Positions 29,800 to 44,315 of a stretch of 64,000 bases of DNA are shown here, piece by piece (position 1 is the first letter of the stretch; each line of letters starts with the position of its first letter). A program made the position numbers and the translations under genes. The DNA is from Verrucomicrobiales bacterium. Lineage in GTDB: Bacteria > Verrucomicrobiota > Verrucomicrobiia > Verrucomicrobiales > DEV007. The stretch spans positions 1 through 64,000 of the forward strand of contig JAHEJT010000002.1 in NCBI GenBank assembly GCA_024638765.1, read 5' to 3'. The notes beneath the pieces were generated by a model. It made no database searches and was not told the DNA's origin. It saw only the letters and a program-made list of their open reading frames with translations.

Positions 29800-30012
29800 T
29801 TATTCGGACGATTCTTCTTCACTCTCATCGAGAGCCACTTTCCCCTCGATGATTTCCGTCAAAGCGATGTCCGCTTGGCCCATTCTTCCGGTCAACCTGA
29901 TCAACGGCGGACGGCCCATATTCAGCTGACGCACCCGCTTGGAGACCATGTTGATCAATACCGGGGCATCCGGTATGATTTCCGACGCCTTTTCAACTAA
30001 GTCACTTCTCAT
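29800..30012 (-). CDS. rpoZ: RNA polymerase omega subunit
   Basis: From ATG 30012 the 70-aa product reads MRSDLVEKASEIIPDAPVLI, followed by NMVSKRVRQLNMGRPPLI and ADIALTEIIEGKVAL. This matches RpoZ, in which the conserved R-V-Q-L-G-RPP...A-EI-GKV pattern contacts the beta' C-terminus. A GGAG lies 9 bp before this ATG; a frame from 30093 adds unlikely residues. The tail is acidic (DESEEESSE). It is upstream of smpB and probably co-transcribed with it. Confidence 0.9.
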   Translation of the reverse strand: MRSDLVEKASEIIPDAPVLINMVSKRVRQLNMGRPPLIRLTGRMGQADIALTEIIEGKVALDESEEESSE

Positions 30013-30614
30013 AGGTGGTTTGCTCCCATGACCCGGCAGATTCGCCGCAGGCTCAGAATTTCCCTCAAAGGTCACTATGTTGGGAGCGGACATGGTGGTT
30101 CAGGTGTATGAATGCTGTGGAAACGCTGGGATCTGGTATCGCCCGGAAGGGATCCGGCACGGAACAAGGGAAGAAAGCGCATACCACATCGTGGAGCATA
30201 CACAACTTTTTTGTTTGGGAAATGGGAATATTTTCCGAAAAGCTCCTGGCCCCCCCGGATCCTCCCGGGAGCCTCTTCCCCCCGAACGCGGCATCCGGGT
30301 AATACGCTTGAGAGAGGCTTCGCCGGGCGGACTCCACGGCCGGACCTCCCGGCCACCGGCGGAAGCCCGGTAAATCAGGTCCCGGGCATAGGCGTCAGGG
30401 CGGCCGGTCTCCACGGGTCTCCCCCTCTTGCGGACGGTCTCGGCCCCCTTTCGCGCCTGGCGCACCAACTCGTCCTCCCTGATGGCCCGAAAACGCCTCG
30501 CGTCCATCCCGACTCGGGCTGCCTCGGGATCCCGTGCCTGCACTAGCCGGATGCGCAGCTGTCAATTCGCATCCAGCCGCCCACCGTCACGATCGGGCGG
30601 CCGATTCCTCGCCC
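30013..30614. other. rpoZ-yidC spacer, no convincing gene
   Basis: These 602 bp hold overlapping frames on both strands but none with a recognisable product. A minus-strand frame at 30100-30543 starts GTG and has GC-rich third positions in its first 70 codons, yet its translation is Arg-rich and loses coding character toward its end. The part near 30180-30250 is A/T-rich and could carry the rpoZ-smpB promoter. I did not recognise an RNA gene. Confidence 0.45.
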
Positions 30615-32462
30615 TTACTTTCTGCGCTTCCTTTTCTGCGCTTTGCTCTTGGTATGCTGCGGTCCCTGACCCGCCACCTTGGTCCTGTTCTTGGCTTGCT
30701 CCATCAGGTTGGAAGTCCCTCCGGGCTTATCCTTTTTCTTGACCAGCTCCGGCTCGGGAAGCCGCCCCATGTACCAAGTCTGCCCGATGCTGAAAATATT
30801 CTGCGCCGTCCAGTAAAGTGCCAGTGCCGACGCGAAATTATAGCAGATGAAAAGAAAGATCACCGGCATGAACATGAAGATTCGCTGCTGCGTTTTGTCC
30901 CCGGATTTGGGCGCCACCTTCATCTGAATCAGCATAGTCACCGCCATCAACAACGGCATCAGGTTGAAGGGCAGATCCCCCAGGAAAGGAATCCGGAACA
31001 ACGTGTCGGGCATCGACAGGTCCTGCACCCAGAGAAATCCCTCGTGTCGCAGCTCCACCGCCGACTGCAGCATCCGGTAAAATCCCAGAAAGATGGGCAG
31101 CTGCAAGAAGGCCGGGAGACATCCTCCGAAGGGATTCACTCCGTAATCCTTGTAAAGAGCCATCATTTCCTGGTTCAGCTTCTGGGGATCGTCGGGATAC
31201 TTCTCCTTGAGCTCCGCCATCTTCGGCGATAAGGACGCCATCCGTTTCATGGTCCGCGTGGATTTGGCATGCAGCGGCCAGATCAGGATTCGAATCACGA
31301 AGGTGATGATGAGAATCGCGATCCCGAAACTCCCCACCTTGCCCTCGAGAAATACCAGCGCCCGCACCAGGAGCCGGCTCACCGGGGCCACCACCCAGCC
31401 CAGGACCGGAAAGTTTCCGTAATTCATGATCTCACGGCGATCCTTGCCCAGATTATTCAGCCGGGCGTACTCTTTTGGCCCCAGGTAAATCTCGTAAGAA
31501 AAACTCGACTGCTGCCCCCGTCCCAATCGGATCTCCGGCAGGCCAACCCCACCCTGAATCGCGTGCAAGGGCTTGGCCCCGCGCCGTGCCTCCGGATACC
31601 CCTTCAACTCGACCGGAAAACGACTGGCCCAGATTTCCCCCGGCGCCGGCGCCCGGGAGGTCACCAGGATCGCGTAAAACTGATTCATGACTCCGGCCCA
31701 AATCAACCCGTCGGCCGATTGCTGCAGCAGCTCTTTCTCCTCGCTGAACTGGACAATGAAGCGCCGCGCGTTAAAGAAACTCACGGGCTTGTAACGCATC
31801 TCCTTGTAGTCTCTCCAGGCGAATCCAGTCTGCTGGGGCCACTCTGCAGGGTGCAAGGGCGCCAGCGCCCCGGTGTAAAGGGACACATCTTTCCGCACGT
31901 AATCCTTGGATCCCCCGTTGACCATAGTGATATCCAGATCAATCAAGTACCCGTCCGCGTCCTCGCCGTCAGGCACTGAATAGCGCTTGGTAATGCGAAT
32001 TCCATCCGCATCGGTCCTCTCGAAGACCACCTCTCGGTCGTCGTGCCTCACGACGGTGAAAGCCTGCGACTCGATAGACCCGGCGCCGCTCGCCAGCGCC
32101 CCTACGGGGCCGGGCCCGTGCTCATTGAGGATAATGGACCCGTTTGGTTCCAAGGTCGCGGCGTGCTCCAGAAGCTCCGCTTTCACGATTCCACCCCCGA
32201 GGTTCGAGAACTCGAAAACCGCCTTATCGGTCTTCAGCTGCAGCGTCCGCTCCTCGGCCCCCGCCGCGGGGGCTGGCGACTCCGAAGGTGCCTGCGTGGG
32301 CATTCCACGCTCCGCCGGGGAAGGGGTTTCCGCAACCGCCTCCGGCGCGGCTTCACCAGGCGCCGCCGCCGGCGGCGGCTGCATGCTGCGCATCATGTAG
32401 GGCGTGTAGAGCACAATCCCTACCGCACAGAGAATCACAACGATCCAGCCCTTACGATCCAT
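30615..32462 (-). CDS. yidC: membrane protein insertase YidC
   Basis: The 615-aa protein inserts and folds inner-membrane proteins with or without SecYEG. It has an N-terminal helix (WIVVILCAVGIVLYTPYMM), a large periplasmic P1 domain (about residues 80-340), and the C-terminal five-helix core with PLHAKSTRTMKRMASLSPKM, YGVNPFGGCLPAFLQLPIF and FNLMPLLMAVTML. The tail is Lys/Arg-rich (TKSKAQKRKRRK), as in ribosome-binding YidC variants. It lies 102 bp downstream of rnpA, the classic rpmH-rnpA-yidC order; no yidD gene is found between them. Confidence 0.97.
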   Translation of the reverse strand: MDRKGWIVVILCAVGIVLYTPYMMRSMQPPPAAAPGEAAPEAVAETPSPAERGMPTQAPSESPAPAAGAEERTLQLKTDKAVFEFSNLGGGIVKAELLEHAATLEPNGSIILNEHGPGPVGALASGAGSIESQAFTVVRHDDREVVFERTDADGIRITKRYSVPDGEDADGYLIDLDITMVNGGSKDYVRKDVSLYTGALAPLHPAEWPQQTGFAWRDYKEMRYKPVSFFNARRFIVQFSEEKELLQQSADGLIWAGVMNQFYAILVTSRAPAPGEIWASRFPVELKGYPEARRGAKPLHAIQGGVGLPEIRLGRGQQSSFSYEIYLGPKEYARLNNLGKDRREIMNYGNFPVLGWVVAPVSRLLVRALVFLEGKVGSFGIAILIITFVIRILIWPLHAKSTRTMKRMASLSPKMAELKEKYPDDPQKLNQEMMALYKDYGVNPFGGCLPAFLQLPIFLGFYRMLQSAVELRHEGFLWVQDLSMPDTLFRIPFLGDLPFNLMPLLMAVTMLIQMKVAPKSGDKTQQRIFMFMPVIFLFICYNFASALALYWTAQNIFSIGQTWYMGRLPEPELVKKKDKPGGTSNLMEQAKNRTKVAGQGPQHTKSKAQKRKRRK

Positions 32463-32564
32463 TGCCCTGGCCTCTCCCGTCGCGGTAAGCTCTCTCCCTG
32501 GTATCCGCCAAACCCGATTGGCTCACATCAGTTTTCATGTGCGGACTCCCCTCCGGTATCGTTC

Positions 32565-32939
32565 TCATCGATCGGCGGCCTTACCCGGCAGAATCCCCCC
32601 CTTTGAGGCCAGCCGAATCCATTCTTCGCGCAATTCCTCGAATCCGGCTTTGCCCGCAGCGACTCTGGTGATCGTCACAATGTAATGTCCCGGCGATAAT
32701 TCGGACCCGATTTCCTGGATAACTCCCCGGATTTGCCGGCGCAACCGGATACGCCGCACCGCCTTCCCCACCCGTTTCGGAGTGATGATACCGAATCTAC
32801 AGCAAGTGAGGTCCGAGTCACGGAGAAAGGCGAGCACCAGGTATTTGCCTCGCAGAGATTCACCGTCGCGCCGCACCCGGAGGAACTCCCGCCGGTGACG
32901 CATCCTCGTGGAGCGCGGCATCTTCATGAGTGCTGCCAT
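32565..32939 (-). CDS. rnpA: ribonuclease P protein component
   Basis: The 124-aa basic protein partners the RNase P RNA in 5' maturation of tRNAs. The RNP-box region reads ITPKRVGKAVRRIRLRRQIR, with the preceding FLRVRRDGESLRGKYLVLAFL. Possible starts are ATG 32939, 32927 and 32921; I keep the first. It is 62 bp downstream of rpmH. No RNase P RNA gene was recognised in the window. Confidence 0.94.
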   Translation of the reverse strand: MAALMKMPRSTRMRHRREFLRVRRDGESLRGKYLVLAFLRDSDLTCCRFGIITPKRVGKAVRRIRLRRQIRGVIQEIGSELSPGHYIVTITRVAAGKAGFEELREEWIRLASKGGILPGKAADR

Positions 32940-33001
32940 GCCGGAGATCCGTCATGAGTTCTCCCCCGGTAAAGACTCGCCGCGCGGCGCGGCCGGAATT
33001 C

Positions 33002-33175
33002 TCAGCCCTTGGTGTGACGCGCGTAATGAATTTCCGCCCCCTTTGGAATGAGCCGGCTCCGGCCCTTCTGACGACGACGTCGGATAATATCCCGGCCGCT
33101 CTTGGTTTTCATCCGCGCCCGAAACCCGTGCTGGCGCTTGCGGCTTCTCTTGGATGGCTGGTAGGTGCGTTTCAT
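33002..33175 (-). CDS. rpmH: 50S ribosomal protein L34
   Basis: The 57-aa product begins [20 protein letters not shown] and continues [20 protein letters not shown], an almost canonical L34. It is about ten residues longer than the usual 44-47 because of a C-terminal extension ([16 protein letters not shown]). The start is ATG 33175; a frame from 33217 adds residues not found in the family. It heads the rpmH-rnpA-yidC group. dnaA and an origin, often upstream, are not present here. Confidence 0.95.
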
Positions 33176-33645
33176 AGTGTTGGGAGATAATTGAAATTCC
33201 GGTGCGGGTGGGGCCATGAGGGAACGAGACCACTCCGCCGTCCGCGTCCGCGCCGTGGATCGGATCCCTCCGCCGCGAAAAAGAGGTGTAAACTACCGTT
33301 TCCGCCGGGTTTGTCAACACGGGAGAAACCGCCCCCCAGGATCCCCTCTGGAGCCGAGATCCGGGATTGCGGGCCCCCAAAAATCCCCTCCGATCCCGGC
33401 CCGGCCCGAGACGACATCCAAGGGCGCAAGGGACCGGATCAGGTTTCCGGAGGTCACCCCCGGAGGCGCGGGGATCGCTCCCGGCCGGAAGGAAAAACCG
33501 GGGAGAGGTTCGGGAAAGTGAAAGGGCCCGGAAACCTGAGTTCCCGGGCCCTCCACAACTGCCTAAACAATCCAGCGCTACGAAGTTATGTGTAGATAGC
33601 TACGAAGTGCTGTTAATTCCTTGATAAGTTAATAAGGCTATTAGG
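33176..33645. other. rpmH upstream region with a strong GC hairpin
   Basis: These 470 bp carry no gene. At 33522-33551 an AGGGCCCGG-type arm pairs with its partner across a CTGA loop, a 13-bp stem with one mismatch; it lies downstream of the histone-like gene and may terminate it, though the T-tail is weak. From about 33577 to 33645 the sequence becomes A/T-rich and contains GCTACGAAGT twice (33577 and 33599). The rpmH promoter should lie within 33180-33300. Confidence 0.5.
33522..33551 (-). terminator. possible terminator hairpin downstream of the histone-like gene
   Basis: The inverted repeat AGGGCCCGGAAAC-CTGA-GTTCCCGGGCCCT forms a 13-bp stem with a single mismatch. On the minus strand it lies about 95 bp after the histone-like stop and is followed by TTTCACTTTCCC, a modest T-rich tail. 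Confidence 0.45.
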
Positions 33646-34077
33646 TTATCTCCTTCTTTTCTTAGCCGCTTTCCGCTTGGCGGGGCGCCTCTTGGCGGCC
33701 TTGCGCTTGGTGGTCTTGCGCTTGGCGGCTTTTCTTTTAGCCTTGCGCTTCGGCGCTTTCCGCTTGGCGGCCTTGCGCTTGGTCTTACGCTTGGCTGCTT
33801 TGCGCTTGGCCTTGCGTCTCGGCGCTTTGCGCTTGGCTGCTTTGCGCTTGGCCTTGCGTTTCGGCGCTTTGCGCTTGGCCTTGCGTTTCGGCGCTTTGCG
33901 CTTGGCCTTGCGTTTCGGCGCTTTGCGCTTGGCTGCTTTGCGCTTGGCCTTGCGTTTCGGCGCTTTGCGTTTGGCCTTGCGTTTCGGCGCTTTGCGCTTC
34001 GCGGCCTTACGCCTTGGCGCCTTTCTTTTCACCGCCCTTCTGCGCGGTGCCTTTCTTTTGGATGCTTTCTTTTTCAC
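33646..34077 (-). CDS. histone H1-like Lys/Arg/Ala-rich repeat protein
   Basis: The 143-aa product is almost wholly built of KRKAP and KRKAK units (for example APKRKAKRKAPKRKAK), with more than half of residues Lys or Arg. It resembles eukaryotic H1 tails and bacterial Hc1/Hc2-like and AlgP-like proteins that coat DNA. The start is GTG 34077, since no ATG precedes it in frame before a stop at 34123-34125. The coding DNA is a set of near-identical 15-30 bp direct repeats, so copy number may vary by slippage. It lies downstream in the same direction as nothing else obvious; the role in nucleoid compaction is inferred. Confidence 0.88.
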   Translation of the reverse strand: MKKKASKRKAPRRRAVKRKAPRRKAAKRKAPKRKAKRKAPKRKAKRKAAKRKAPKRKAKRKAPKRKAKRKAPKRKAKRKAAKRKAPRRKAKRKAAKRKTKRKAAKRKAPKRKAKRKAAKRKTTKRKAAKRRPAKRKAAKKRRR

Positions 34078-34854
34078 GGTTGTTTTCTTCTTATTAACGC
34101 TGTTTGCTTGCGTGGCTTTTTTTTACTTATTTTTGCGAGCGCTGTCACGAACGTTTTTGCAAGAAAATCGAAGGACTTGGTTGACTTTATTCAACGGAGT
34201 TCCCCGCTCTCCTCAACAATGACTCCGACAGGACTCGAAAATTATTCCCATCAAAGGGCGCTTGCCCGCCGCCGCGGTGCACGCGGCACACTAACAAACA
34301 TCCCTCTGTCTTGGCTCTTATCTTGGAAAGAACAGCTTGCCGAACCATTACCGGGGAAAGTCCTCAAGATCTCTGCACGGCCCCCATCGGGATTCTCAAA
34401 GCGGCGCCCCATCCCTCGGACGAAACTCTTGCCCGCTTTGCCTTCCTCTTGAGTTCAAGTTTCTCTCAGACGTTCCTGGTCAGTTCTGCTTCGACTGGAC
34501 CATGCTTAATCGAGAAGGCTGAATGAGGTCAAGAGAATTATTTAAGAAGTCTTGATTTTTTACGTCGAGATATTTGCGCGCTCCCCTCCCCCGCACGCTC
34601 GACTCACCCCGGCCTCCCATCCCCTTCCCCATCTTCCATTTGCCCTAACATTGTGCCCTAATGAGGGCCGCCGCTTGCGCGTGACACCGAAAAATCAAGG
34701 GTCAAATCGGTTTACCGCAGCGCGCCCACTTCGCGCCGGCTTCCCCGGCAACAGGAAATCTCCCCGCTTCGAGTCCCAAGGAAACACCCTCGCGCCACCC
34801 CGTAATCACCCCCCTCTGCCCCCAGAAAAAAAAATCGCGAAAAAAAGCGTCCGT
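34078..34854. other. long non-coding spacer between the histone-like gene and ispH
   Basis: These 777 bp hold no frame I would defend. The part 34080-34200 is A/T-rich and should contain the histone-like promoter. A short plus-strand frame at 34311-34526 has no start context and no family. The region 34540-34560 has a T-rich run. I looked for RNase P RNA and tmRNA signatures here and did not find them, although a GGGGAAAGTCC motif occurs at 34349-34359. Confidence 0.4.
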
Positions 34855-36114
34855 TCACACCGCGAGCACTTCCTGCGCACTAATCCCCCTCAACTCGAAT
34901 ACCCTCAGAATCGTCTCCTCAATGAGATTGTTGGGACACGATGCCCCCGCCGTGATCCCAACCGTGACCGGCCCCTCCCCCAACAGCTTCTCGGAGTAAG
35001 CCGTCTTCTCCGTGCGGTCGCATAGATCGAAATGAACGATCTCCGAGAGCGATTTCAGGCATTGCGCGTCCCGGATAAAAAAAGAAGGCAGCTCTTCCTG
35101 CCCTATTTCCACGAGATGACCCGTGTTCGAACTGTTGTATCCCCCCACCACCAAGAGCAGGTCCATCGGCTGCTTCAGCATCTCAAAGAGCGCATCCTGA
35201 CGCTCCTGGGTGGCCCCGCAAATGGTGTCGAAGGATCGGAAATGATTCGACAGCTCCGCTCCACTGTAGCGGGAAGCCAGCGTCCGCTGGAGCCGGCGCT
35301 GAATTTCCTCGGTCTCCGACTTCAACATCGTCGTCTGGTTGGCGACGCCAATGTTCAAGAGATGCTTGTCGGGATCGAATCCCTCCGAGTAACAGCCCTC
35401 GAACTCCTTGAGAAATTCCTCCCGATCTCCCCCCCGGCAAATGTATTCGCACACGTAATCGACCTCCTCCAGAGTCAGCAGAATGAGATAGTGCCCGTTC
35501 CCATCCTCCCCCAGCGCCCGCGATGCCGTCGCCCGCGTCTCCTCGTGCGACGCTTTGCCATGGATGATGGAAGTCCGTGCTTCCCGCGCGTTGGCCTTGA
35601 CACGCTTCCAGACGCTCATCACGTCCCCGCAGGTGGTATCGACAATCACGCACCCCCGCTCGCGCAGGGTCTCCATGATTGAGGTCTGGGCGCCGAAAGC
35701 CGGCACGATTACGACGTCACTTTCGCCGAGGTTCTCGAGAACGTCCTCCATCCCCTCCCCATCCAGGCGCCGGATCCCCATTTCCTCCAGCTGCCGGTTG
35801 ACCTCCGGATTGTGAATAATCTCTCCAATCAGGTAGATATTGCTCTCCTCGAAAACTTTCCGTGCCGCGTATGCCAGGTCGATGGCCCGTTCCACCCCGT
35901 AACAGAATCCAAATTGCTGGGCCAGGCGCACCGTCGTTCCCTGGATCGACAAAACCCCCTCGTGCTCCCGCAACTTCTCCACCACCAAGCTTCGATAGTG
36001 CTCCTCCACCTCCGCCTTGACCCGCTCCATCACCTCGGGCGTACGGACGTTTACCCGGCGCCGGGGCTTCGCCCCCGCCTTCTCCCCGCTCTTTTCTGCA
36101 GCGTTCGATCGCAT
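34855..36114 (-). CDS. ispH: 4-hydroxy-3-methylbut-2-enyl diphosphate reductase, long form
   Basis: The 419-aa enzyme makes IPP and DMAPP in the last step of the MEP pathway and carries a [4Fe-4S] cluster. Cluster cysteines are seen in FGFCYGVERAI, DTTCGDVMSVWKRV and TAGASCPNNLIEE, and HGKASHEETRATA and NYNSSNTGHL-type motifs are present (VVGGYNSSNTGHLVEI). It is about 100 residues longer than E. coli IspH, like plant, cyanobacterial and some PVC enzymes, with an N-terminal extension of about 70 residues and insertions near DREEFLKEFEGCYSEGF. It is transcribed away from the sigma-54 activator. Confidence 0.95.
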   Translation of the reverse strand: MRSNAAEKSGEKAGAKPRRRVNVRTPEVMERVKAEVEEHYRSLVVEKLREHEGVLSIQGTTVRLAQQFGFCYGVERAIDLAYAARKVFEESNIYLIGEIIHNPEVNRQLEEMGIRRLDGEGMEDVLENLGESDVVIVPAFGAQTSIMETLRERGCVIVDTTCGDVMSVWKRVKANAREARTSIIHGKASHEETRATASRALGEDGNGHYLILLTLEEVDYVCEYICRGGDREEFLKEFEGCYSEGFDPDKHLLNIGVANQTTMLKSETEEIQRRLQRTLASRYSGAELSNHFRSFDTICGATQERQDALFEMLKQPMDLLLVVGGYNSSNTGHLVEIGQEELPSFFIRDAQCLKSLSEIVHFDLCDRTEKTAYSEKLLGEGPVTVGITAGASCPNNLIEETILRVFELRGISAQEVLAV

Positions 36115-36479
36115 CCTTCACTCCTGCGCACCAGGCCGGCCCGCGCCCTACCCTCGCCGAAAAAAGGGCGCCCCGCGACCCATCAATCTCTCTCTTTGTC
36201 CGAACATCTCTCCGCATCCCCTCCACCGAAACCCAGAGTCCCAGTGTCTCCGCCTGCCACAGACGATGCTCAAAAAACGGGCCCCCCGCTAAGGCGACAC
36301 TCAGCGCTCTGGCGACACTCCGGGAAAGGGCCTATCCCCTAACGCAGGAACCGGAGCCGGGCAACACCCGTTTTCCCGAGTAAATCACCCGCTGCCCCCT
36401 TGCGATGACTAATTATAAGAAAAAGTTTAAAAATCTATAAAAACTTGATATTTCTGGACCGCAAAAAAGTGAGTTTTCT
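36115..36479. other. upstream region of ispH
   Basis: These 365 bp contain no gene. The ispH-proximal part is C/T-rich; from about 36400 onward the DNA is A/T-rich (TAATTATAAG, then runs of A and T) and could hold divergent promoters for ispH and the transcript ending at 36604. No operator-like palindrome was seen. Confidence 0.4.
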
Positions 36480-36604
36480 TGACTATTAATGTTGACCTAC
36501 ACTCCCATCGTGTTAATTTGATTACGGTTATTCCTTGGAGTAACTATTTGTTTGTGTTTCATGTTTCCAGATTGCTTAGCCCTTCGGGGCTAAGCATTTT
36601 TTTT
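36480..36604 (+). ncRNA. candidate small RNA or 5' leader ending in an intrinsic terminator
   Basis: An A/T-rich stretch ends in a perfect intrinsic terminator with no coding gene upstream on the plus strand. TTGACT at 36479-36484 and TTGACC at 36491-36496 are possible -35 elements, and TAATTT about 16 bp after the latter could act as -10, giving a transcript of roughly 80-100 nt. The segment contains a GGAGTAAC-like sequence but no convincing reading frame. It could be a free-standing small RNA or an attenuator for the sigma-54 activator gene, which starts 68 bp later. Confidence 0.5.
36573..36604 (+). terminator. perfect intrinsic terminator (UUCG tetraloop) upstream of the sigma-54 activator
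   Basis: TGCTTAGCCC (36573-36582) pairs perfectly with GGGCTAAGCA (36587-36596) around a TTCG loop and is followed by eight T (36597-36604). It is oriented with the plus strand. ispH is divergent and ends far away, so this terminator does not belong to any visible upstream coding gene. Confidence 0.93.
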
Positions 36605-36671
36605 GCCCTCTTCCCCAAATCCCTGTCGTCCCCCCAGGCGATAAGCGCTATCTTCGCCCAGCGGAAGACTT

Positions 36672-38147
36672 ATGCCTGCCGACCCTCTTCGCATCCTCAT
36701 CGTCGATGCCAACCGTGGCGACGCCAGCCGCCTCCAACACAGCCTGGATTCCCACGGTTTCGCATCCACCCACCGCGCTCGCGGCAAGGATGCCCTCGCC
36801 CTCGCCCTCACCGGGGGATTTGAGGCCGTCATCACCGAATCCGATCTGGAAGACGATAGCGGGCTCAGCCTCATCTCCCAATTGCACTCCAAGCTGCCCC
36901 GTGTCCCCGTCATCATGCTGACTCACAAAGAAGCCAGCAATACCGCCATCGAAGCCATCAAGAGCGGCGCCTACGACTACCTCCAGAAACCCGCCGATTT
37001 CGAAGAACTCGTGCGCATCCTCCGCGAAGCGATTTCCAGCGCCCGCCGGATGTCGAAGCCCGTCGAAATCGGCCAGGTCTACCCGGAGCAGGACACCATC
37101 CTGGGCCACAGCCGGCTCATGACCGAAGTCTACAAAGAACTCGGCCGCGTCGCGTCCAAACCCGTCACAGTGCTCATCCGCGGCGAAACCGGCACCGGCA
37201 AGGAACTCATCGCCCGCGCTATTTACCAACACGGTCACCGCCCTCAAAAGCCGTTCGTCGCCATCAACTGCGCCGCCATCCCCGCCCCCCTGCTGGAGGC
37301 GGAACTCTTCGGACACGAAAAGGGCGCTTTTACCGGAGCGGATAAACTCCGCATCGGCCGCTTCGAACAAGCCCATAACGGCACCCTTTTCCTGGATGAA
37401 ATCGGCGACATGGACCTTCACCTGCAAGCCAAACTGCTCCGCGTGCTCCAGGAAAAAAGGATCCGCCGCGTCGGTGGCGTCCACGAAATTCCCGTCGATG
37501 TCCGCATCATCGCCGCCACCCATCGGGACCTCGAGGAGATGATCGACGCCGGCACCTTCAGGCCCGATCTGTATTACCGCCTAAACGTTGCCGCCATCAA
37601 TATCCCTCCCCTCCGCAACCGCCGGGAAGATCTCCCCCCGCTCGTGGAACATTACCTGCAGCATTACGGAGAGGAATACGCCATCGACTATCCCTCGATC
37701 ACTTCCCAAGGCCTCAAGTTTCTTGAGCAACAGGACTGGCCAGGAAACGTCCGGCAACTCCAGAACGTCCTCCGCAAAGCCCTGCTGGGATCCCGCGGTT
37801 ATCCCATCGGATGGACCGCCCTGCGCGATATCTACGAGGAATCCCAGGCCGGACCCGCCACCCACAGCGGTAACGCCTCTCTCCGCCAACTCGTCGCCGA
37901 TACGCTGCAACAGGCCGCCGAGGGTGAGCTGCCTGCGGTCTATCCCGTCCTCGTGGAAACTCTGGAGCGCGAACTGCTCGCCGCCGCCATCAAACGCTCG
38001 GGCGGCAACCAGGCCCAGGCCGCCCGCTGGCTCGGCATTTCCCGATTCACCCTCCGGGAAAAACTCCACCGCTATCAACTCCACCCCGGCTCTTCGAGTT
38101 CCAAAGAAGATCCCCCGGGAGAAAAACCTGCCAGCGGCGCTTCTTGA
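36672..38147 (+). CDS. sigma-54-dependent response regulator (NtrC type) with altered receiver
   Basis: The 491-aa regulator has a receiver domain (3-125), an AAA+ sigma-54 activator domain (about 135-370) and a Fis-type helix-turn-helix (about 435-475). Walker A is GETGTGKE, Walker B FLDEIGDM, and the sigma-54 contact loop GAFTGA is intact. In the receiver, the phospho-acceptor Asp is replaced by Glu56 ([12 protein letters not shown]), and the acidic pair at the N-terminus is D12-A13, while the KP motif (YLQKPAD) is kept. It may therefore act as constitutively on or respond to another signal. No histidine kinase is adjacent. A GGAAG Shine-Dalgarno precedes ATG 36672. Confidence 0.93.
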
Positions 38148-38155
38148 AATTTTGA

Positions 38156-39163
38156 CTATCCGATCCGCTCCCCGCGGTCCCGGAACCACTTGCGCGTCGC
38201 CCTCCCGTATTCCGCGTAGGTCCCCACCCGCTTCTCCAGCTTGCTCCGAAATGATTTCCGCACCGGACCCCCGGATCCGGCCCGCGGCCCCTCAATCAGC
38301 GCGACGATCAAGTCCACCAGCGATTCCGCGTCCCGGAGCGATACGTATTCAGATTCGATCGCTCCCTCCGGACCACAGTTGTGATAATTCCCCAGGAGAA
38401 TCGAGAGACCGGCCGAAGCGATCCCATAGGCCTGAAAGGCCGAGGCCTCACACGAACCACCGTCGAGCAGGAGTCGCTGCACCTCGATTCCACGCTCTCG
38501 CGCCGTCTCTGCGATGGCACGCGTCGCGGCGTCGTCAAAAATCGAGAGCCGGTCTCCCACGCGCAATACCGGCCCCCCGCCCATGCACGCTTCCCCCACC
38601 GGCGAGCTCGTTTCAAGCGAGACGAAGACCACGCTTTTTGGCAGTGGCCACCGCCGGGCCAGATGGATCGCGCCGACAAATCCCACCTCTTCCGCGCGGG
38701 TAAAAATGCCGTAACAGACGCCCTTCACCTCCCGCCTCTCGAGCTCTGCGAAGAGACCCACGATGGTCCCGCAATTGATGAGATCATCGCAGGCGCGCGA
38801 GTAAATCAGCCCGTCGCGCACCTCCATCGCGGGCAGGCGCCACATCCCGAACTCACCGAATTCCTCGATGTCCGGATCTTTCAGGTATTCCGCGGGCACT
38901 CCACCGAGAAACTCCCATCCTGCGCCTCTCTCTTTGCGCACCCAACCGGGGTGATCCATGTGCGCCCCGAAGGCATACCCCGCCCGCTTGCGCCCTCGAC
39001 GATAGCTGGCGATCAGGTTTCCAAAATCATCTTCCTCCACCCGCACGTGCGGAAACTCCCGCAACAACCTCAGCAGCGCGTCCCTCACAAAATACTCGTG
39101 GAATGGCGCGGTCGGGCTGTCCAGAATCTCTTTGAGAATTTTTTCCAGTTTCTGCCCGTCCAT
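38156..39163 (-). CDS. M42-like zinc metallopeptidase
   Basis: The 335-aa cytoplasmic protein resembles M42 aminopeptidases (FrvX/YsdC group), usually dodecameric. Metal and catalytic residues are visible in order: GAHMDHPG, SRACDDLINC (bridging Asp), TRAEEVGFVGA (catalytic Glu pair), VSLETSS, and the last His in LLGNYHNCGPEG. It cleaves amino acids or short acyl groups from peptides; the substrate is unknown. Its gene converges with the sigma-54 activator, 8 bp between stops, and is divergent from the acyltransferase gene (78-bp gap). Confidence 0.88.
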   Translation of the reverse strand: MDGQKLEKILKEILDSPTAPFHEYFVRDALLRLLREFPHVRVEEDDFGNLIASYRRGRKRAGYAFGAHMDHPGWVRKERGAGWEFLGGVPAEYLKDPDIEEFGEFGMWRLPAMEVRDGLIYSRACDDLINCGTIVGLFAELERREVKGVCYGIFTRAEEVGFVGAIHLARRWPLPKSVVFVSLETSSPVGEACMGGGPVLRVGDRLSIFDDAATRAIAETARERGIEVQRLLLDGGSCEASAFQAYGIASAGLSILLGNYHNCGPEGAIESEYVSLRDAESLVDLIVALIEGPRAGSGGPVRKSFRSKLEKRVGTYAEYGRATRKWFRDRGERIG

Positions 39164-39241
39164 GCCGAATCAACCCGGTTACCGCGCTCCCCACGGTTGA
39201 CCTCTGCTCCTCCACAATCTATGGAGTGAATCCTGTTCCCG

Positions 39242-40222
39242 ATGATATCCCCTTGGAAGAAAATTCGCTACCGCATCGAGTGGCTCGCCGTGCTCTTCAT
39301 CTCACGGGTAATTCCTCTCCTTCCGCGCCGGAGCGTCCTGCTCCTGGCCCGGCTCCTCGGCCCCATCGGCTACTTTTTCGATTCCCACGGCCGCACCACC
39401 ACTCTCCAGAATCTGAACTCGGTCTACGGCCCCAATAAATCGCCCGCCGAGATCAAACGCATCGCCCGCGGCTGTTACTGCAGTTTCGCGCGGACGTTCT
39501 GTGATCAATTCTGGACCACGCGCCTGAACCGGGACAATTTCCAGGATTTTTGCCGGTATGAATTCGCGGACCACGACGCCTTCGAGGCCGCCCGGCAAAG
39601 CGGCGCCATCTGGGTCACCCCTCATTACGGAAATTTCGAATGGATCAGCCTCTGCATCGGTTACCTCGACCTCCCCTTCTGCATCGTGACCCAGGAATTC
39701 AAGAATCCGTTGCTCACCGATCTATTCAAAAGAAACCGCGAGCACAGCGGTCACACCGTGATCCCGCAACAGCGCTCCATGATCCGCCTCTATAAGCATC
39801 TGCAGAATCACGGGCACGCCGCCTTCCTCACCGATCTCACTGTCCCTCCCGGGAAAGCCGCCACCGTCATCAACTGTATGGGACTCAAGACCTGCGTCAC
39901 CACCCTCCACGGGGCCCTGGCCCACAAGAGCCGTCTCCCCGTCATCCCCGGGATTTCCATTCCCCAGCCCGACGGCACTTACCTCATGCGCGTCCTCCCG
40001 CCTTTGCAGATCTCAGCCAATTCCACCGTCCGCGAAATCGCCCAGCAATGCTGGGACGCCTTCGAGCCCACGATCCGCGAACATCCCGAGCACTGGATCT
40101 GGATGTACAAACACTGGCGATACCGCCCGCCCGGCAATCATGCCCGCTACCCCGCTTACGCCAACCCCTCGAAAAAATTCGCCCGGCTCCTCGAAAATAC
40201 CGGTGCGGGAGGAGACAGCTAA
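39242..40222 (+). CDS. LpxL/HtrB-type lipid A biosynthesis acyltransferase-like protein
   Basis: The 326-aa protein has an N-terminal hydrophobic anchor (WLAVLFISRVIPLLP) and the family's catalytic HX4E motif in TPHYGNFEW. The later segments QQRSMIRLYKHLQNHGHAAFLTDLTV and the C-terminal PEHWIWMYKHWRYRP (Trp-rich, with WxWxHxRW) also fit. It transfers an acyl chain at the inner membrane, most likely to lipid A or another glycolipid; no lpx genes are nearby, so the acceptor is uncertain. Confidence 0.88.
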   Translation: MISPWKKIRYRIEWLAVLFISRVIPLLPRRSVLLLARLLGPIGYFFDSHGRTTTLQNLNSVYGPNKSPAEIKRIARGCYCSFARTFCDQFWTTRLNRDNFQDFCRYEFADHDAFEAARQSGAIWVTPHYGNFEWISLCIGYLDLPFCIVTQEFKNPLLTDLFKRNREHSGHTVIPQQRSMIRLYKHLQNHGHAAFLTDLTVPPGKAATVINCMGLKTCVTTLHGALAHKSRLPVIPGISIPQPDGTYLMRVLPPLQISANSTVREIAQQCWDAFEPTIREHPEHWIWMYKHWRYRPPGNHARYPAYANPSKKFARLLENTGAGGDS

Positions 40223-40282
40223 GTCCCGGGTAGATGCACCAAGCGTCATCGGGAGTAAATCGTCTCTCGATCGCCTTCCTCC

Positions 40283-40336
40283 CGATAACTGGTCACCAAT
40301 AACGGATAACCCGGCGAAGCCGCAAGCCGCCGCCGC
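40283..40336. repeat. 3'-end element: triloop hairpin plus 7-bp units, abutting the pseudopilin stop
   Basis: The stem CGGC (40312-40315), loop GAA and GCCG (40319-40322) is followed by a GCC-rich stretch up to the pseudopilin stop codon at 40337-40339. On the other side lie ATAACTG, GTCACCA, ATAACGG and ATAACCC units. In the gene's sense the order is stop, hairpin, then GGTTATCCGTTATTGGTGACC. It resembles the elements at 29227, 44336, 56240 and 61297. Confidence 0.75.
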
Positions 40337-40999
40337 CTAAAAGAAGGAACACACGTCGTCGGAGCCCCTGTAATTGCCGTTCCCCTTGCGCCCCATCTCC
40401 TTGTCCTCACCGTAAGACAGAATCAAGATTCCTCCCAGATTCCTGAAGACACCCGCATCCGTAACTTCCATGTCCTCGTAATCGAACATCTCGTTTTCGG
40501 ACGCGTCAATCTCGTCGTTGTAATCGGTGTCCAGCAGGATCCGGAATTCGTTCCCCCAGATATCGAAATACCTGCCGTCTTCGGCAATCCCTCCCCGCGG
40601 GGATTCACCGGATCCCCGGGCCTCCTTCACGTTGGTGAGAAAGACGATTCGCTTTGGGTTGAGGCGATGCCCGCTGTTCCATCCCGCGTCTTCCGCCAGG
40701 AGCACGTACATTAAATCACCCGTGTTCGCGCTTCCCCCCTCGCCGACCATCACATCTCTACCCTGCATGTCCTCTTCAACCGGGTATCGGCCGTATTCAT
40801 TGTAATACTCCGCGATGGCGATGCGCAGTTGCTGAATCTCGTTCTTGGTGGCAGTCTTCCGCGCCGCCCGCAGGATCCCCGGTCCAGCCGCAAAGATTAC
40901 TCCCGCCAGGATCGCGACGATCAGCATGACAACCAGCAATTCCAAAAGGGTAAACGCGCGCGCATCTCTACGGGATCGCAGGGCTGAGGACATTTTCAT
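40337..40999 (-). CDS. type II secretion pseudopilin-like protein (GspG-like)
   Basis: The 220-aa product has the prepilin N-terminus ARAFTLLELLVVMLIVAILAGVIFAAG with Glu at +5, a long helix (ATKNEIQQLRIAIAEYYNEYGRYP) and a C-terminal globular part with calcium-site-like DTDYNDEIDASENEMFDYED and an FDIWGNEFRI motif. The Y-YPxxx and DxWGxxxxY/F pattern matches major pseudopilins. No gsp genes are adjacent, so it is an orphan; such genes are numerous in Verrucomicrobiota. The mature protein would be membrane-anchored by its first helix. Confidence 0.88.
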   Translation of the reverse strand: MKMSSALRSRRDARAFTLLELLVVMLIVAILAGVIFAAGPGILRAARKTATKNEIQQLRIAIAEYYNEYGRYPVEEDMQGRDVMVGEGGSANTGDLMYVLLAEDAGWNSGHRLNPKRIVFLTNVKEARGSGESPRGGIAEDGRYFDIWGNEFRILLDTDYNDEIDASENEMFDYEDMEVTDAGVFRNLGGILILSYGEDKEMGRKGNGNYRGSDDVCSFF

Positions 41000-41117
41000 T
41001 TATCGATCTCCTTGAGTCTGGGGTTGAGGGTCTTGCACTCCTTCTTCCGGCCCACACCAAAGCGGCCGGGAAATGAAGCGAGGTATTTTCAAAACATAGA
41101 CAGGGAAATGGCGCCGA

Positions 41118-41777
41118 TCAACGGCGAAATCCCTCCTTAAATCCACCCTGGTCCCCTCTCCCGAGCAATGGCTGCACCAGCAGCCAAAACACCGCTGGCA
41201 AGAGGATACTCAACGCTATCGCCGGCACCGGGTGCCGGTTCCCCGTCTCCCCCACCGCCGCGAACGCAAACCCCATCGGGATGCACCCGCACGCCAGCGC
41301 CGCGAAAAATCTTCTCGCCGGCATCCGCGTCAATCCCGCCATACACGCCACCACCTCCGGCAGCAACGGAAGCCAGCGTGACAAAGCTACCAGCCAACCG
41401 CCTGCCCGCGCGAAAAGACGTTCCCCCTCGCGCAATCCTTTTTCCCCCGCCAGCATCACCGCCGCCCTCCGGCCCAACATCCGGCACAAACCGTATGCCA
41501 GGCTCCCCGCCAGAAAAGATCCCGACGCCGCCAGCAGACCTCCCCACCACGCCCCGTAGACGTATCCAAGCGCGGACATCACCACCGTCGACGGCAGGGG
41601 AAGCACCAGGTCGAGCACCAGCAGGATCAATCCCGCCGCCCAGGCCCAACTCCCGTACGCCCGCAGCCAGCTCACCGATCCTTCCCGGTCGAATATCTCC
41701 GTAAACTGCTCCCCCCAGATCAGAAACGGAATCAGCACCAGCACCGCCAGCACCAGAAATATCCAGAACACACGCAT
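41118..41777 (-). CDS. TVP38/TMEM64 (VTT-domain) membrane protein
   Basis: I set the start at ATG 41777 (MRVFWIFLVLAVLVLIPFLI), giving 219 aa; longer frames translate the heptanucleotide repeat region. The VTT/SNARE-associated domain is recognisable from LPSTVVMSALGYVYGAWWGGLLAASGSFLAGS and the Gly-rich re-entrant segments, with RWLPLLPEVVACMAGLTRMP later. Related DedA/VTT proteins act in lipid or solute transport across the membrane. It lies back-to-back with the PNPOx-fold gene. Confidence 0.82.
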   Translation of the reverse strand: MRVFWIFLVLAVLVLIPFLIWGEQFTEIFDREGSVSWLRAYGSWAWAAGLILLVLDLVLPLPSTVVMSALGYVYGAWWGGLLAASGSFLAGSLAYGLCRMLGRRAAVMLAGEKGLREGERLFARAGGWLVALSRWLPLLPEVVACMAGLTRMPARRFFAALACGCIPMGFAFAAVGETGNRHPVPAIALSILLPAVFWLLVQPLLGRGDQGGFKEGFRR

Positions 41778-41784
41778 CCTCAGA

Positions 41785-41973
41785 AGAGTGAAAAGTAAAA
41801 AGTAGGAAAGTAAAAGGTTCCGGAGCGGTAACTTTTCACTCAATGCAGGGCAAGCATCGGACGGAAAACAACCGGCACTTTGAGCGAAAATGAAGTCGGC
41901 CCGGAGGTATGGCCGCACCACATCGGGATTCTTTACTTTTTACTTTCCCACTTTTTACTTTTTACTCTATTTC
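41785..41973. repeat. pair of inverted 7-bp repeat tracts between divergent genes
   Basis: AAAGTA-type units fill 41785-41816 and TTTTACT-type units fill 41931-41973, the second being the reverse complement of the first in pattern. They flank a 114-bp centre and sit within 10 bp of the start codons of the VTT gene (41777) and the PNPOx gene (41976). They replace the normal ribosome-binding regions of both genes. Confidence 0.85.
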
Positions 41974-41975
41974 CA

Positions 41976-42425
41976 GTGCCCTCTCCCGCCCCCATCGATC
42001 CCGCCGATCTCCCCGCACTCGCCCGTGACACCATCGCCGCCGCGAAATTTCCCCAGCTCGCCACTATCGACGGCGATCAACCCCGCCTCCGGCCCGTCTC
42101 GCCCGTCCGCACCGACGGCTTCACGATTTACGTCGCCAATCTCCGGCAATATTCCAAGACCGCCGAAATCGCCGCCAATCCCAAGGTGGAACTCTGTTAC
42201 CTCGACCCCGACCACAACCAGGTCCGCATCACCGGGACCGCGGAAATCCTCGAGGACGAGGCCCTCCTCCGCGAAATCTGGGACGGTAACGCCCTCCTCC
42301 GCCAATACCTGGGCACCCCCGACAATCCCGAGCTCATCATTTACAGGATCATCCCCAGCCGCGTCCGTTACATGCGCGAATGGGCCCTCGAATACCACGA
42401 GGTCCCCCTGACCGAAACATCCTGA
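41976..42425 (+). CDS. pyridoxamine 5'-phosphate oxidase-fold protein
   Basis: The probable start is GTG 41976 (VPSPAPIDPADLPALARD), directly after a heptanucleotide tract; upstream codons come from that repeat. The 149-aa product has the FMN-binding split-barrel pattern: FPQLATIDGDQPRLRPVSP, IYVANLRQYSKTAEIAANPKVEL and VRITGTAEILED. Such proteins reduce flavins, heme products or other small substrates; true PdxH motifs are not evident. A 47-bp stretch at its 3' end (42361-42407) is repeated in diverged form at 43771-43817. Confidence 0.8.
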   Translation: MPSPAPIDPADLPALARDTIAAAKFPQLATIDGDQPRLRPVSPVRTDGFTIYVANLRQYSKTAEIAANPKVELCYLDPDHNQVRITGTAEILEDEALLREIWDGNALLRQYLGTPDNPELIIYRIIPSRVRYMREWALEYHEVPLTETS

Positions 42426-42431
42426 TCAACG

Positions 42432-43661
42432 TCAGTCCAGAAGGTGAGGTCGGTCCTCGAGAATCGTCAGAATCGCCTCCGCAGCCACTCGTCCCCCCAC
42501 AACATTGGGGTGCATTTCATCCGGCGCATAAAGCGTCTTCGGGGTCCGGGCGCCATCCGCATCGCGGGCGCGCCGCGCCGCGTAATCACGCCCGAAATAC
42601 TCCGAAAAACGAAAACTGGATATCCCGTGTGCCTCTCCCAGCTCTTCGACCACCAGCCGCCGGCCCTCGGGCACGGGATAAGGGTGGGCCGATTGAAAGC
42701 CTTCCACGTCGTAAATGCCATCCTCCCTGAAGCTAGGCCAGATTCCGATGATCACGTCGAACCTCTCCTCCGCGCTCAGCGCTTTCAACATCGGCAAACC
42801 GGCATGCACATTGCTTGCAACCCCCGCAGGATTGGCGTTCAGGGCCTCGAGATGCTTGCGGAGCGTCGCGGACGAATCCCGACCCGATTTTAGAATCTCC
42901 CAAAACCTGTCCGGATCAGAGGCATAAATGCTCCAGACATATTCTCCTGCAACCTCCTGAAGACCCAGGTAAGTGCGAATCTGAAACAGGTTGTACTTTG
43001 TGCCCAGATAACGGAAGAGATGCGAATGGAGGAAAAAAAATTGCACCGTCCGCGGCAACGAGGCGCGCCCCACTTCGTTGTTCAAATTCGAGTAGTCGTT
43101 CCCGACGAACACAAGGATGACAAGGTCCGGTGAGTATGGAAGGCCAAACTCCTTCAAGAGCTCCACTTCCCCTCGCGTGCAATACCCCGGAATCCCCATG
43201 TTGAGCACTTCGATATTGCGCGGAGCCAACAGCTTTTCCAGCTGACGCGAGATCGTGTCATCGATCGATTCAGTGAACTCGTCGGACGCGACGACCGAAT
43301 CGCCCAATAAGATGATTCGCTTCGTGCCCGCCGGCTTGTCGAAATTCCGCTCCACATCCCGGAAGCCTTGGGAATTGGTTGCCGCATGAGTGATCCCGCC
43401 GATCTTGCGCCGAAGGTTCTTCTTATAGAGATACCCCAGGTAAGGATTATCGGATACACGAAAGCCCGATTGCATCCCCCCGGGATCGATGCGCCACATC
43501 TTCGGGGCCAGGCCCAGCAGCCGCACCCCCAACTCGCTCAACACTAAGGCAACCAGAAGCGCGCCGGCCAAAAGCACGCACTTGAATACCAGGCGGTGAA
43601 GCCTCGGTCTCTTTTCCGGGCCGTTGCCTGAATTTGATTGCGATTCCTGATCCGCGGTCAC
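42432..43661 (-). CDS. membrane-anchored SGNH/GDSL-family hydrolase
   Basis: The 409-aa protein from GTG 43661 has a membrane helix (VLLAGALLVALVLSELGVRLL) and an SGNH fold: GDS in ILLGDSVVASDEF (Ser nucleophile), Gly in NMGIPGYCTRGE, Asn in FVGNDYSNL, and the D-x-x-H pair in PDEMHPN. It is probably an esterase acting on periplasmic glycans or lipids, such as removal or transfer of acetyl groups. A second possible start is GTG 43682. The gene is flanked by diverged copies of a 47-bp sequence (42361 and 43771), suggesting that it entered by insertion or duplication. Confidence 0.82.
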   Translation of the reverse strand: MTADQESQSNSGNGPEKRPRLHRLVFKCVLLAGALLVALVLSELGVRLLGLAPKMWRIDPGGMQSGFRVSDNPYLGYLYKKNLRRKIGGITHAATNSQGFRDVERNFDKPAGTKRIILLGDSVVASDEFTESIDDTISRQLEKLLAPRNIEVLNMGIPGYCTRGEVELLKEFGLPYSPDLVILVFVGNDYSNLNNEVGRASLPRTVQFFFLHSHLFRYLGTKYNLFQIRTYLGLQEVAGEYVWSIYASDPDRFWEILKSGRDSSATLRKHLEALNANPAGVASNVHAGLPMLKALSAEERFDVIIGIWPSFREDGIYDVEGFQSAHPYPVPEGRRLVVEELGEAHGISSFRFSEYFGRDYAARRARDADGARTPKTLYAPDEMHPNVVGGRVAAEAILTILEDRPHLLD

Positions 43662-43770
43662 TGCTCCGAATCCATACGTCACTTTCTTATAACCGGCGCA
43701 GTTGCTGTGAGGCCAGTCGAAGATCTGCCGGTCGTCATAACTTCGGCCCGCCGGCGGCGATGGCGCGAGC

Positions 43771-43817
43771 GCGTCCGTTACACGCCCGCGTGGGCCCTCG
43801 ATCACGATGAGGTCCCC
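43771..43817 (+). pseudogene. remnant of a PNPOx-gene 3' end
   Basis: This 47-bp stretch matches 42361-42407 at 39 of 47 positions with no gaps and keeps the frame: RVRYTPAWALDHDEVP against RVRYMREWALEYHEVP. The upstream part of the gene is missing, so it is a fragment of a second PNPOx-type gene rather than a working copy. It lies on the far side of the SGNH gene. Confidence 0.7.
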
Positions 43818-43832
43818 TGGCCCTCTCGGCGC

Positions 43833-44315
43833 TCAGCCTGCAATCCCGGACCCCGAACCTTTCCCGAACCGTTCCGCCAGGATCTGTGCCCGGTGATCGA
43901 AAATGTGCGCCAGCTTGCGCCGCACATAGAGCGCGTGGGCAATCTCCCCCAGGAACCCGAACCCCACCTCGTAGCGGATCGTGTCCCGCATCCGGATGCC
44001 CTCCCCCTCGGGCTCGAAGCTATGCCGATGATGCCAGGACCGGTAAGGCCCCACTTTCTGCACGTCCACGAACTCCCGCCCCTCGCCCACCTCCTCGATC
44101 TCTGAGACCCACTTCGTCCACACCAGCGGCGCCACCCGTACCCGGTATTCGATCACCTGTCCCTCGAACATTCTCTCGGAGTCCAGCGACACAATCCGAA
44201 ACTTCAAGTCCGGCGGCGTGATCTCCTCCAGATTGCGCGGGCTGGAAAAAAATGCCCACGCCTCTTCCGGCGAAACCGGCAGCACCTGCTCGCGCTCGAG
44301 AGTATGAATCGCCAT
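43833..44315 (-). CDS. SRPBCC-fold protein
   Basis: The 160-aa soluble protein begins MAIHTLEREQVLPVSPEEAW, then AFFSSPRNLEEITPPDLKFRIV, the typical N-terminus of SRPBCC/START-like ligand-binding proteins (COG4276-like). The DVQKVGPYRSWHHRHSFEP stretch with Trp-His-His lies where the cavity opens, and RDTIRYEVGFGFLGEI follows. The ligand is not known. It is 20 bp upstream of nothing on its strand and may be co-transcribed with the GNAT gene region behind it. Confidence 0.8.
   Translation of the reverse strand: MAIHTLEREQVLPVSPEEAWAFFSSPRNLEEITPPDLKFRIVSLDSERMFEGQVIEYRVRVAPLVWTKWVSEIEEVGEGREFVDVQKVGPYRSWHHRHSFEPEGEGIRMRDTIRYEVGFGFLGEIAHALYVRRKLAHIFDHRAQILAERFGKGSGSGIAG

Follow-up and report, generated by a model that had tools for sequence, protein, structure and literature searches.

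The 64,000-nucleotide stretch of Verrucomicrobiales DNA analysed here (the window) carries, at 36526-36604 (+), a predicted small RNA (sRNA) gene, and its sequence strongly supports an independent gene over a leader belonging to the sigma-54 activator that follows it. Judging from genome comparisons, it represents a previously uncatalogued sRNA family that is kept across family f1 of Verrucomicrobiales. We give a probability of roughly 0.6 to the joint reading that this is a stand-alone sRNA gene whose unpaired linker acts in trans as an antisense region. The RNA would probably silence other genes through base-pairing with their mRNAs, the targets being putative. The features of the region are as follows.

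34855-36114 (−): ispH (LytB), PF02401; divergent conserved neighbour, outside the RNA
36492-36497 (+): predicted −35 element, TTGACC; an equivalent TTGA[CT] is found in 54 of 56 distinct copies
36514-36519 (+): predicted −10 element, TAATTT, 16 nt past the −35 element; placed from aligned copies
36526-36604 (+): predicted transcript, a small RNA of ~79 nt; start taken from the promoter, end from the terminator
36526-36545 (+): 5′ hairpin with a CUUG loop; from the fold and the pair count of helix 1
36546-36572 (+): unpaired G/U-rich linker; from the fold and the alignment
36573-36604 (+): intrinsic terminator, 10-bp stem, UUCG loop, T8; from the pair count of helix 2
36672-38147 (+): sigma-54 activator, PF00158 + PF00072 + PF02954; downstream gene, not a conserved partner

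Terminator, hairpins and predicted promoter

The sequence-only reading of this region had described a perfect 10-bp stem with a UUCG loop and eight T, into which no coding gene ends on the plus strand. Both observations were confirmed: the stem (TGCTTAGCCC/GGGCTAAGCA), the loop TTCG and the eight T occupy exactly 36573-36604 (+), ispH lies on the minus strand, and the activator starts at 36672. On the two strands of the window, a hairpin of this type (perfect 10-bp stem, seven or more T among the eight bases after it) was found once; 60 dinucleotide-shuffled versions of the window gave one in total. Folding of the presumed transcript (36518-36604) gave −25.6 kcal/mol versus −14.7 for shuffles (z = −4.0; 0/200 as good).

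Possible −35 and −10 elements had been proposed as well; a promoter is indeed supported by comparison with related copies, but the earlier placement was rough, and the supported boxes are those at 36492-36497 and 36514-36519. In the stretch where the −35 element is expected, TTGAC occurs in 51 of the 56 distinct copies, versus 3.5% of shuffled stretches, and 16 is the commonest spacing between the two boxes (42/56 copies). Alignment of 54 copies on the −35 element gave T 0.70, A 0.81 and final T 0.94 for the −10 element, and revealed a conserved CTTAA in the spacer. In the window copy, the −35 element and the 16-nt spacing are retained, whereas the CTTAA is missing; its −10 TAATTT is a weak match to TATAAT, and a plain consensus promoter scan did not list TTGACC-N16-TAATTT. 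Its −35 element sits 35 nt before the GTTA of the 5′ hairpin, as in one relative counted by hand. The form across f1 is TTGACA-N16-TAnnnT, and the promoter would be of the sigma-70 type and the RNA's own.

To find relatives, a DNA search was carried out with 36395-36615 as the query against 95 genomes (E <= 1). It matched 64 of them, many of the weak matches being chance, and the good matches centred on query positions 145-173, which correspond to the linker. Of 45 copies compared, from 43 loci, 43 share an architecture composed of a TTGAC box, 16-17 nt, a TAnnnT box, a 5′ hairpin, the linker, a terminator hairpin and a T-run. The two exceptions are a copy cut by a contig end (L008) and one with no clear terminator (L016); a further locus (L044, genome G027) has no proper linker.

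The alignment of the 43 copies (A1; L008 and L016 left out) yielded two hairpins in RNAalifold, with compensatory changes in 16/16 predicted pairs. When one pair was added to these, 93.5% of the 719 cells in the resulting 17 pairs were paired, two-sided changes occurred in 16 of the 17, and the two-sided cells amounted to 125 versus a shuffled mean of 38.8. As a control, the partners were slid by 1 to 3 columns, and pairing fell to 26-46%. In the 5′ hairpin (helix 1), 98.1% of cells are paired and 4/5 pairs show two-sided changes; in the terminator (helix 2), the corresponding values are 91.5% and 12/12. From the compensatory changes and the drop in the slid control we conclude, therefore, that the hairpins keep their form and not their sequence. 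The terminator sequence changes among copies while the linker stays nearly invariant: GTTTGTGTTTC (36550-36560) is identical in 43/43 rows of A1, and the consensus UGUUUGUGUUUC[A/G]UGUUUC varies very little across the f1 copies. This constancy is partly a selection effect, because the relatives were found through the linker; covariation and synteny are free of that effect.

These alignments also bear on the idea that the element forms the 3′ end of an overlooked gene for a small protein, which we regard as scarcely credible. A possible start, [A/G]TG, is present within the linker of 55/56 copies, but the frame lengths range from 2 residues to open-ended with no conserved frame, and the changes at paired positions are compensated. 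The frame opened by this [A/G]TG was rejected as a candidate, since it is not conserved and stops after 2 residues in 10/56 copies.

Genomic place and distribution

The surroundings of the RNA were compared at 54 distinct loci. Upstream, ispH is present and divergent in 45, and a gene for an L,D-transpeptidase-like lipoprotein lies between ispH and the RNA in 43. Downstream, the next recognised gene is on the opposite strand in 31/54 loci, with an oxidoreductase-like gene (20/54) or an M42 peptidase gene (11/54) in that orientation, and the sigma-54 activator follows in 3/54. The transpeptidase and oxidoreductase names are our own readings of the sequences, aided for the transpeptidase by similarity to a PF03734 protein. 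The ispH side is largely conserved and the downstream gene varies; thus, the position of the RNA is linked to the ispH side, not to whatever gene comes next.

The sequence-only reading had left a choice between an independent small RNA and a leader attenuating the activator. A leader would stop transcription early unless a signal permits read-through, and in the window 67 nt do separate the T-run from the start of the activator, which has the same orientation; the activator also follows the RNA in two other loci (L061 and L068). However, with so few activator-linked loci and so many opposite-strand ones, synteny largely refutes this proposal, and the consensus structure consists of one terminator and one 5′ hairpin, with no alternative antiterminator. 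We therefore consider a leader highly improbable. A search for covarying homologues upstream of the same activator had been suggested; covarying homologues were found, but most of them are not upstream of it. The independent small RNA is strongly supported at the sequence level by the conserved predicted promoter, the covarying hairpins, the conserved linker, the conserved place beside ispH and a genome (G018) in which three copies stand in tandem, each behind a promoter of its own. The locus has a predicted promoter of its own and an intrinsic terminator, with no coding gene between them, as is characteristic of a stand-alone sRNA gene, and it has a covarying RNA structure conserved in several species.

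Other observations were made on the neighbouring genes. The receiver domain of the activator, aligned with 1zy2, has Glu at the position of the phospho-acceptor Asp, so the protein may work without phosphorylation; its relative in L061 seems to retain Asp. The best promoter-like match of 30000-44000, TTTATA-N18-TATAAT at 36412-36441 (−), is directed at ispH, whose leader would then be ~300 nt long. A histone-like ORF with Lys/Ala/Arg repeats occupies 33646-34077 (−).

The covariance model R1, whose alignment includes the window copy itself, gives 77.9 bits at 36526-36604 and detects one other element in the same genome, a weak paralog on contig C92 (32.4 bits). This paralog (L144; G000 C92:17842-17926) shows a 5′ hairpin, a linker rich in UGUUU (ATTTGTTGTGTGTTTTGTGTTTCCAGG) and a terminator, with no clear −35 element. 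Among the 386 genomes of an order-wide scan (E <= 0.01), 70 matched, comprising 56 of the 74 listed f1 genomes and 14 from outside the family. One f1 match (G572, 29.9 bits) was dropped because its sequence has no linker and consists of the terminator only, which leaves 55/74 listed genomes and 15/18 f1 genera as members. A phylum-wide scan of 387 genomes, in which the window's own genome was the sole f1 member listed, gave 9 matches and nothing outside f1 above 27.7 bits.

The weak matches outside f1 (14 order-wide and 8 phylum-wide genomes, two of them shared) were all read, and none of these 20 was counted as a member; most of them are terminators that immediately follow a gene, and a GU-rich run is present in some. 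In L152 and L153 (family f2), L268, L270 and L274, runs such as TTGTTGTTTGTTTCGTGTTTTGG lie directly between the stop codon and the terminator, and they are possibly 3′UTR relatives of the linker or chance occurrences among many terminators.

The pattern TGTTTGTGTTTCRTGTTTC was also searched in the named genome collection, where it occurred in 51 contigs. Of these, 41 scored at least 39.4 bits, and their titles name Verrucomicrobiota groups: one is Akkermansia muciniphila, and most are Verrucomicrobiales or Akkermansiaceae MAGs. The other ten (Haliea, Spirochaetales, Planctomycetota, Ignavibacteria, Phycisphaerae) have flanks without the architecture and score <= 25.3 bits, and we discarded them as chance or repeats. 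Second copies were seen in two further cases: one is truncated in the linker and lies 17 kb from the main copy (L158), and in genus g18 the second copy has no 5′ hairpin (L145, L146).

An unselected check on the linker bias was provided by 13 ispH loci from the 18 of 74 f1 genomes without a model match. A decayed linker-like sequence was present at the expected place in 2/13; in 8/13 the transpeptidase gene is present and the RNA absent, and 3/13 are incomplete (one without upstream sequence, two ending early).

Candidate function of the linker

According to the antisense reading, the sRNA would be transcribed from its own sigma-70-type promoter and ended by the intrinsic terminator, which would form the 3′ hairpin, while the 5′ hairpin would stabilise the RNA. 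Acting in trans, the unpaired linker would then probably block translation by base-pairing with C/A-rich sequences on or close to ribosome-binding sites and start codons, which is the way in which R1 of GcvB works. The complement of the linker, GGAAAC-AUG-AAACAC, could be read as a weak Shine-Dalgarno sequence, a start codon and the Lys/His codons of a signal-peptide N-terminus; for 36554-36568, the exact reverse complement is GGAAACATGAAACAC. Hfq (PF17209) was found in 0/57 genomes, including the window's own, and in 5/14 control genomes. Since no Hfq gene was found, the RNA would have to work without Hfq.

To look for an excess of pairing at gene starts, we used a sample of 37 stretches from the window's own genome plus the window, together with 19 stretches of genome G057, and a simple gene-start caller of our own. 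Ten of the own-genome contigs had been picked because they contained complement matches; L216, L222 and L223, which belong to these ten, were removed before the test. RNAduplex counts at 414 and 250 starts showed no excess over shuffles that keep the ATG. Matches to the 17-mer with <= 5 mismatches at starts numbered 12 versus 7.8 (51/400 controls as high), and a second count gave 7 versus 4.5 (78/400 controls as high); neither is significant. At the starts of the neighbouring L,D-transpeptidase genes, pairing exceeds that of shuffles by a small margin only (40 loci, mean z −0.53), and for three genes of the window (ispH, the activator and the histone-like gene) the linker shows no advantage over shuffles.

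Places complementary to the linker were also located. The 17-base complement occurs at 26 places in the own genome, including the RNA itself and the paralog, and 17 of the 24 others were fetched; the 15-base complement was searched in 20 genomes, and 23 of the non-self places were fetched. The complements often coincide with the starts of signal-peptide genes, a coincidence with ATG starts that is largely explained by the presence of AUGAAA in the pattern. The variant GGMMMMATGAAACAM, tested in 20 genomes, gave 11 places, of which two are the RNA itself; two of the remaining nine are exact complements, and both belong to genus g12. In these two loci (L182, L183), GGAAACATGAAACAC covers the start codon of a candidate target. 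Their products are homologous exported Secretin_N-like proteins with 43% identity (Pfam match below the curated cut-off). The candidate comes from two related species, and the homologues of the protein in the stretches examined are domain relatives only. In another genome (L181, G011), a gene for a YkuD L,D-transpeptidase lipoprotein has a near complement, GAAACATGAAACACC, at its start codon; this is the same kind of gene as the usual neighbour of the RNA.

A broader proposal is that the RNA is an Hfq-independent global riboregulator of Verrucomicrobiales, whose GU-rich linker reads the GGAAAC-AUG-AAA-CAC starts of many exported-protein mRNAs; we consider it doubtful at best. If it were true, a single seed would recognise the ribosome-binding site, the start codon and the first Lys/His codons of signal-peptide genes.

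The main rival to antisense pairing is that the linker is a protein-binding site, and that the RNA acts by titrating or carrying an RNA-binding protein instead of pairing with mRNAs. Near-invariance over ~20 nt agrees with it, as does the repeat UGUUUG-UGUUUC-RUGUUUC, with UGUUU units ~6-7 nt apart. Two further points speak for a protein: the complement is not enriched at starts, and in the C92 and g18 copies the linker is still rich in UGUUU although the remainder has changed. Nevertheless, no candidate protein was identified, and the RNA is single-copy in most genomes, unlike known titrating RNAs, which carry many sites. In addition, R1 of GcvB shows that conservation of this kind also fits pairing with multiple targets (PMC3879156). 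On balance, protein binding seems to us rather unlikely, and antisense pairing remains the preferred reading. In either case, the fact that the linker is invariant has to be explained, whether by many targets or by a dedicated protein.

Comparison with known systems

At gathering thresholds, Rfam 15 returned two tRNAs only for the whole window, and all matches at the locus were below threshold. The best weak matches to sRNAs were SprD (RF01828; 20.9 bits versus a gathering score of 100) and DsrA (RF00014; 12.1 bits versus 60). The RNA is a member of neither family, and the matches probably reflect the layout of hairpin, linker and terminator. GcvB, which we take to be RF00022, was absent among the Rfam matches for 36380-36680 with E up to 10, none of which reached the gathering score.

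In the accessible text of the literature on sRNAs, Hfq, transcription start sites and structured RNAs in Verrucomicrobia and Akkermansia (including PMC8040213, PMC4782308 and PMC9029176, with subscription journals and preprints outside the scope), such an RNA is not described. Table 1 of a 2022 review based on Rfam gives 8 distinct annotated sRNAs for the Planctomycetes-Verrucomicrobia-Chlamydiae group versus 345 for Proteobacteria (PMC9029176). A family-wide covarying sRNA in genomes without detectable Hfq offers a concrete entry to post-transcriptional control in these bacteria, and the RNA lends itself to deletion, to probing and to use as bait.

Within the PVC group, the accessible text on the Chlamydia sRNA IhtA describes a repressor of hctA translation that carries a stretch complementary to the first 6 nt of this target, and the RNA proposed here would resemble it as a translational repressor (PMC3469542). 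It differs from IhtA in that it has no Rfam match and its linker pairs with the histone-like gene of the window no better than with shuffles. GcvB is larger than the RNA described here, which has ~80 nt and two hairpins, and it acts with Hfq, whereas no Hfq gene was found in the genomes analysed here. The likeness to GcvB concerns its R1 region, described in the accessible text as highly conserved, unstructured and GU-rich: like R1, the linker is conserved, unstructured and GU-rich, and its complements would likewise be CA-rich and lie in or next to ribosome-binding sites (PMC3879156).
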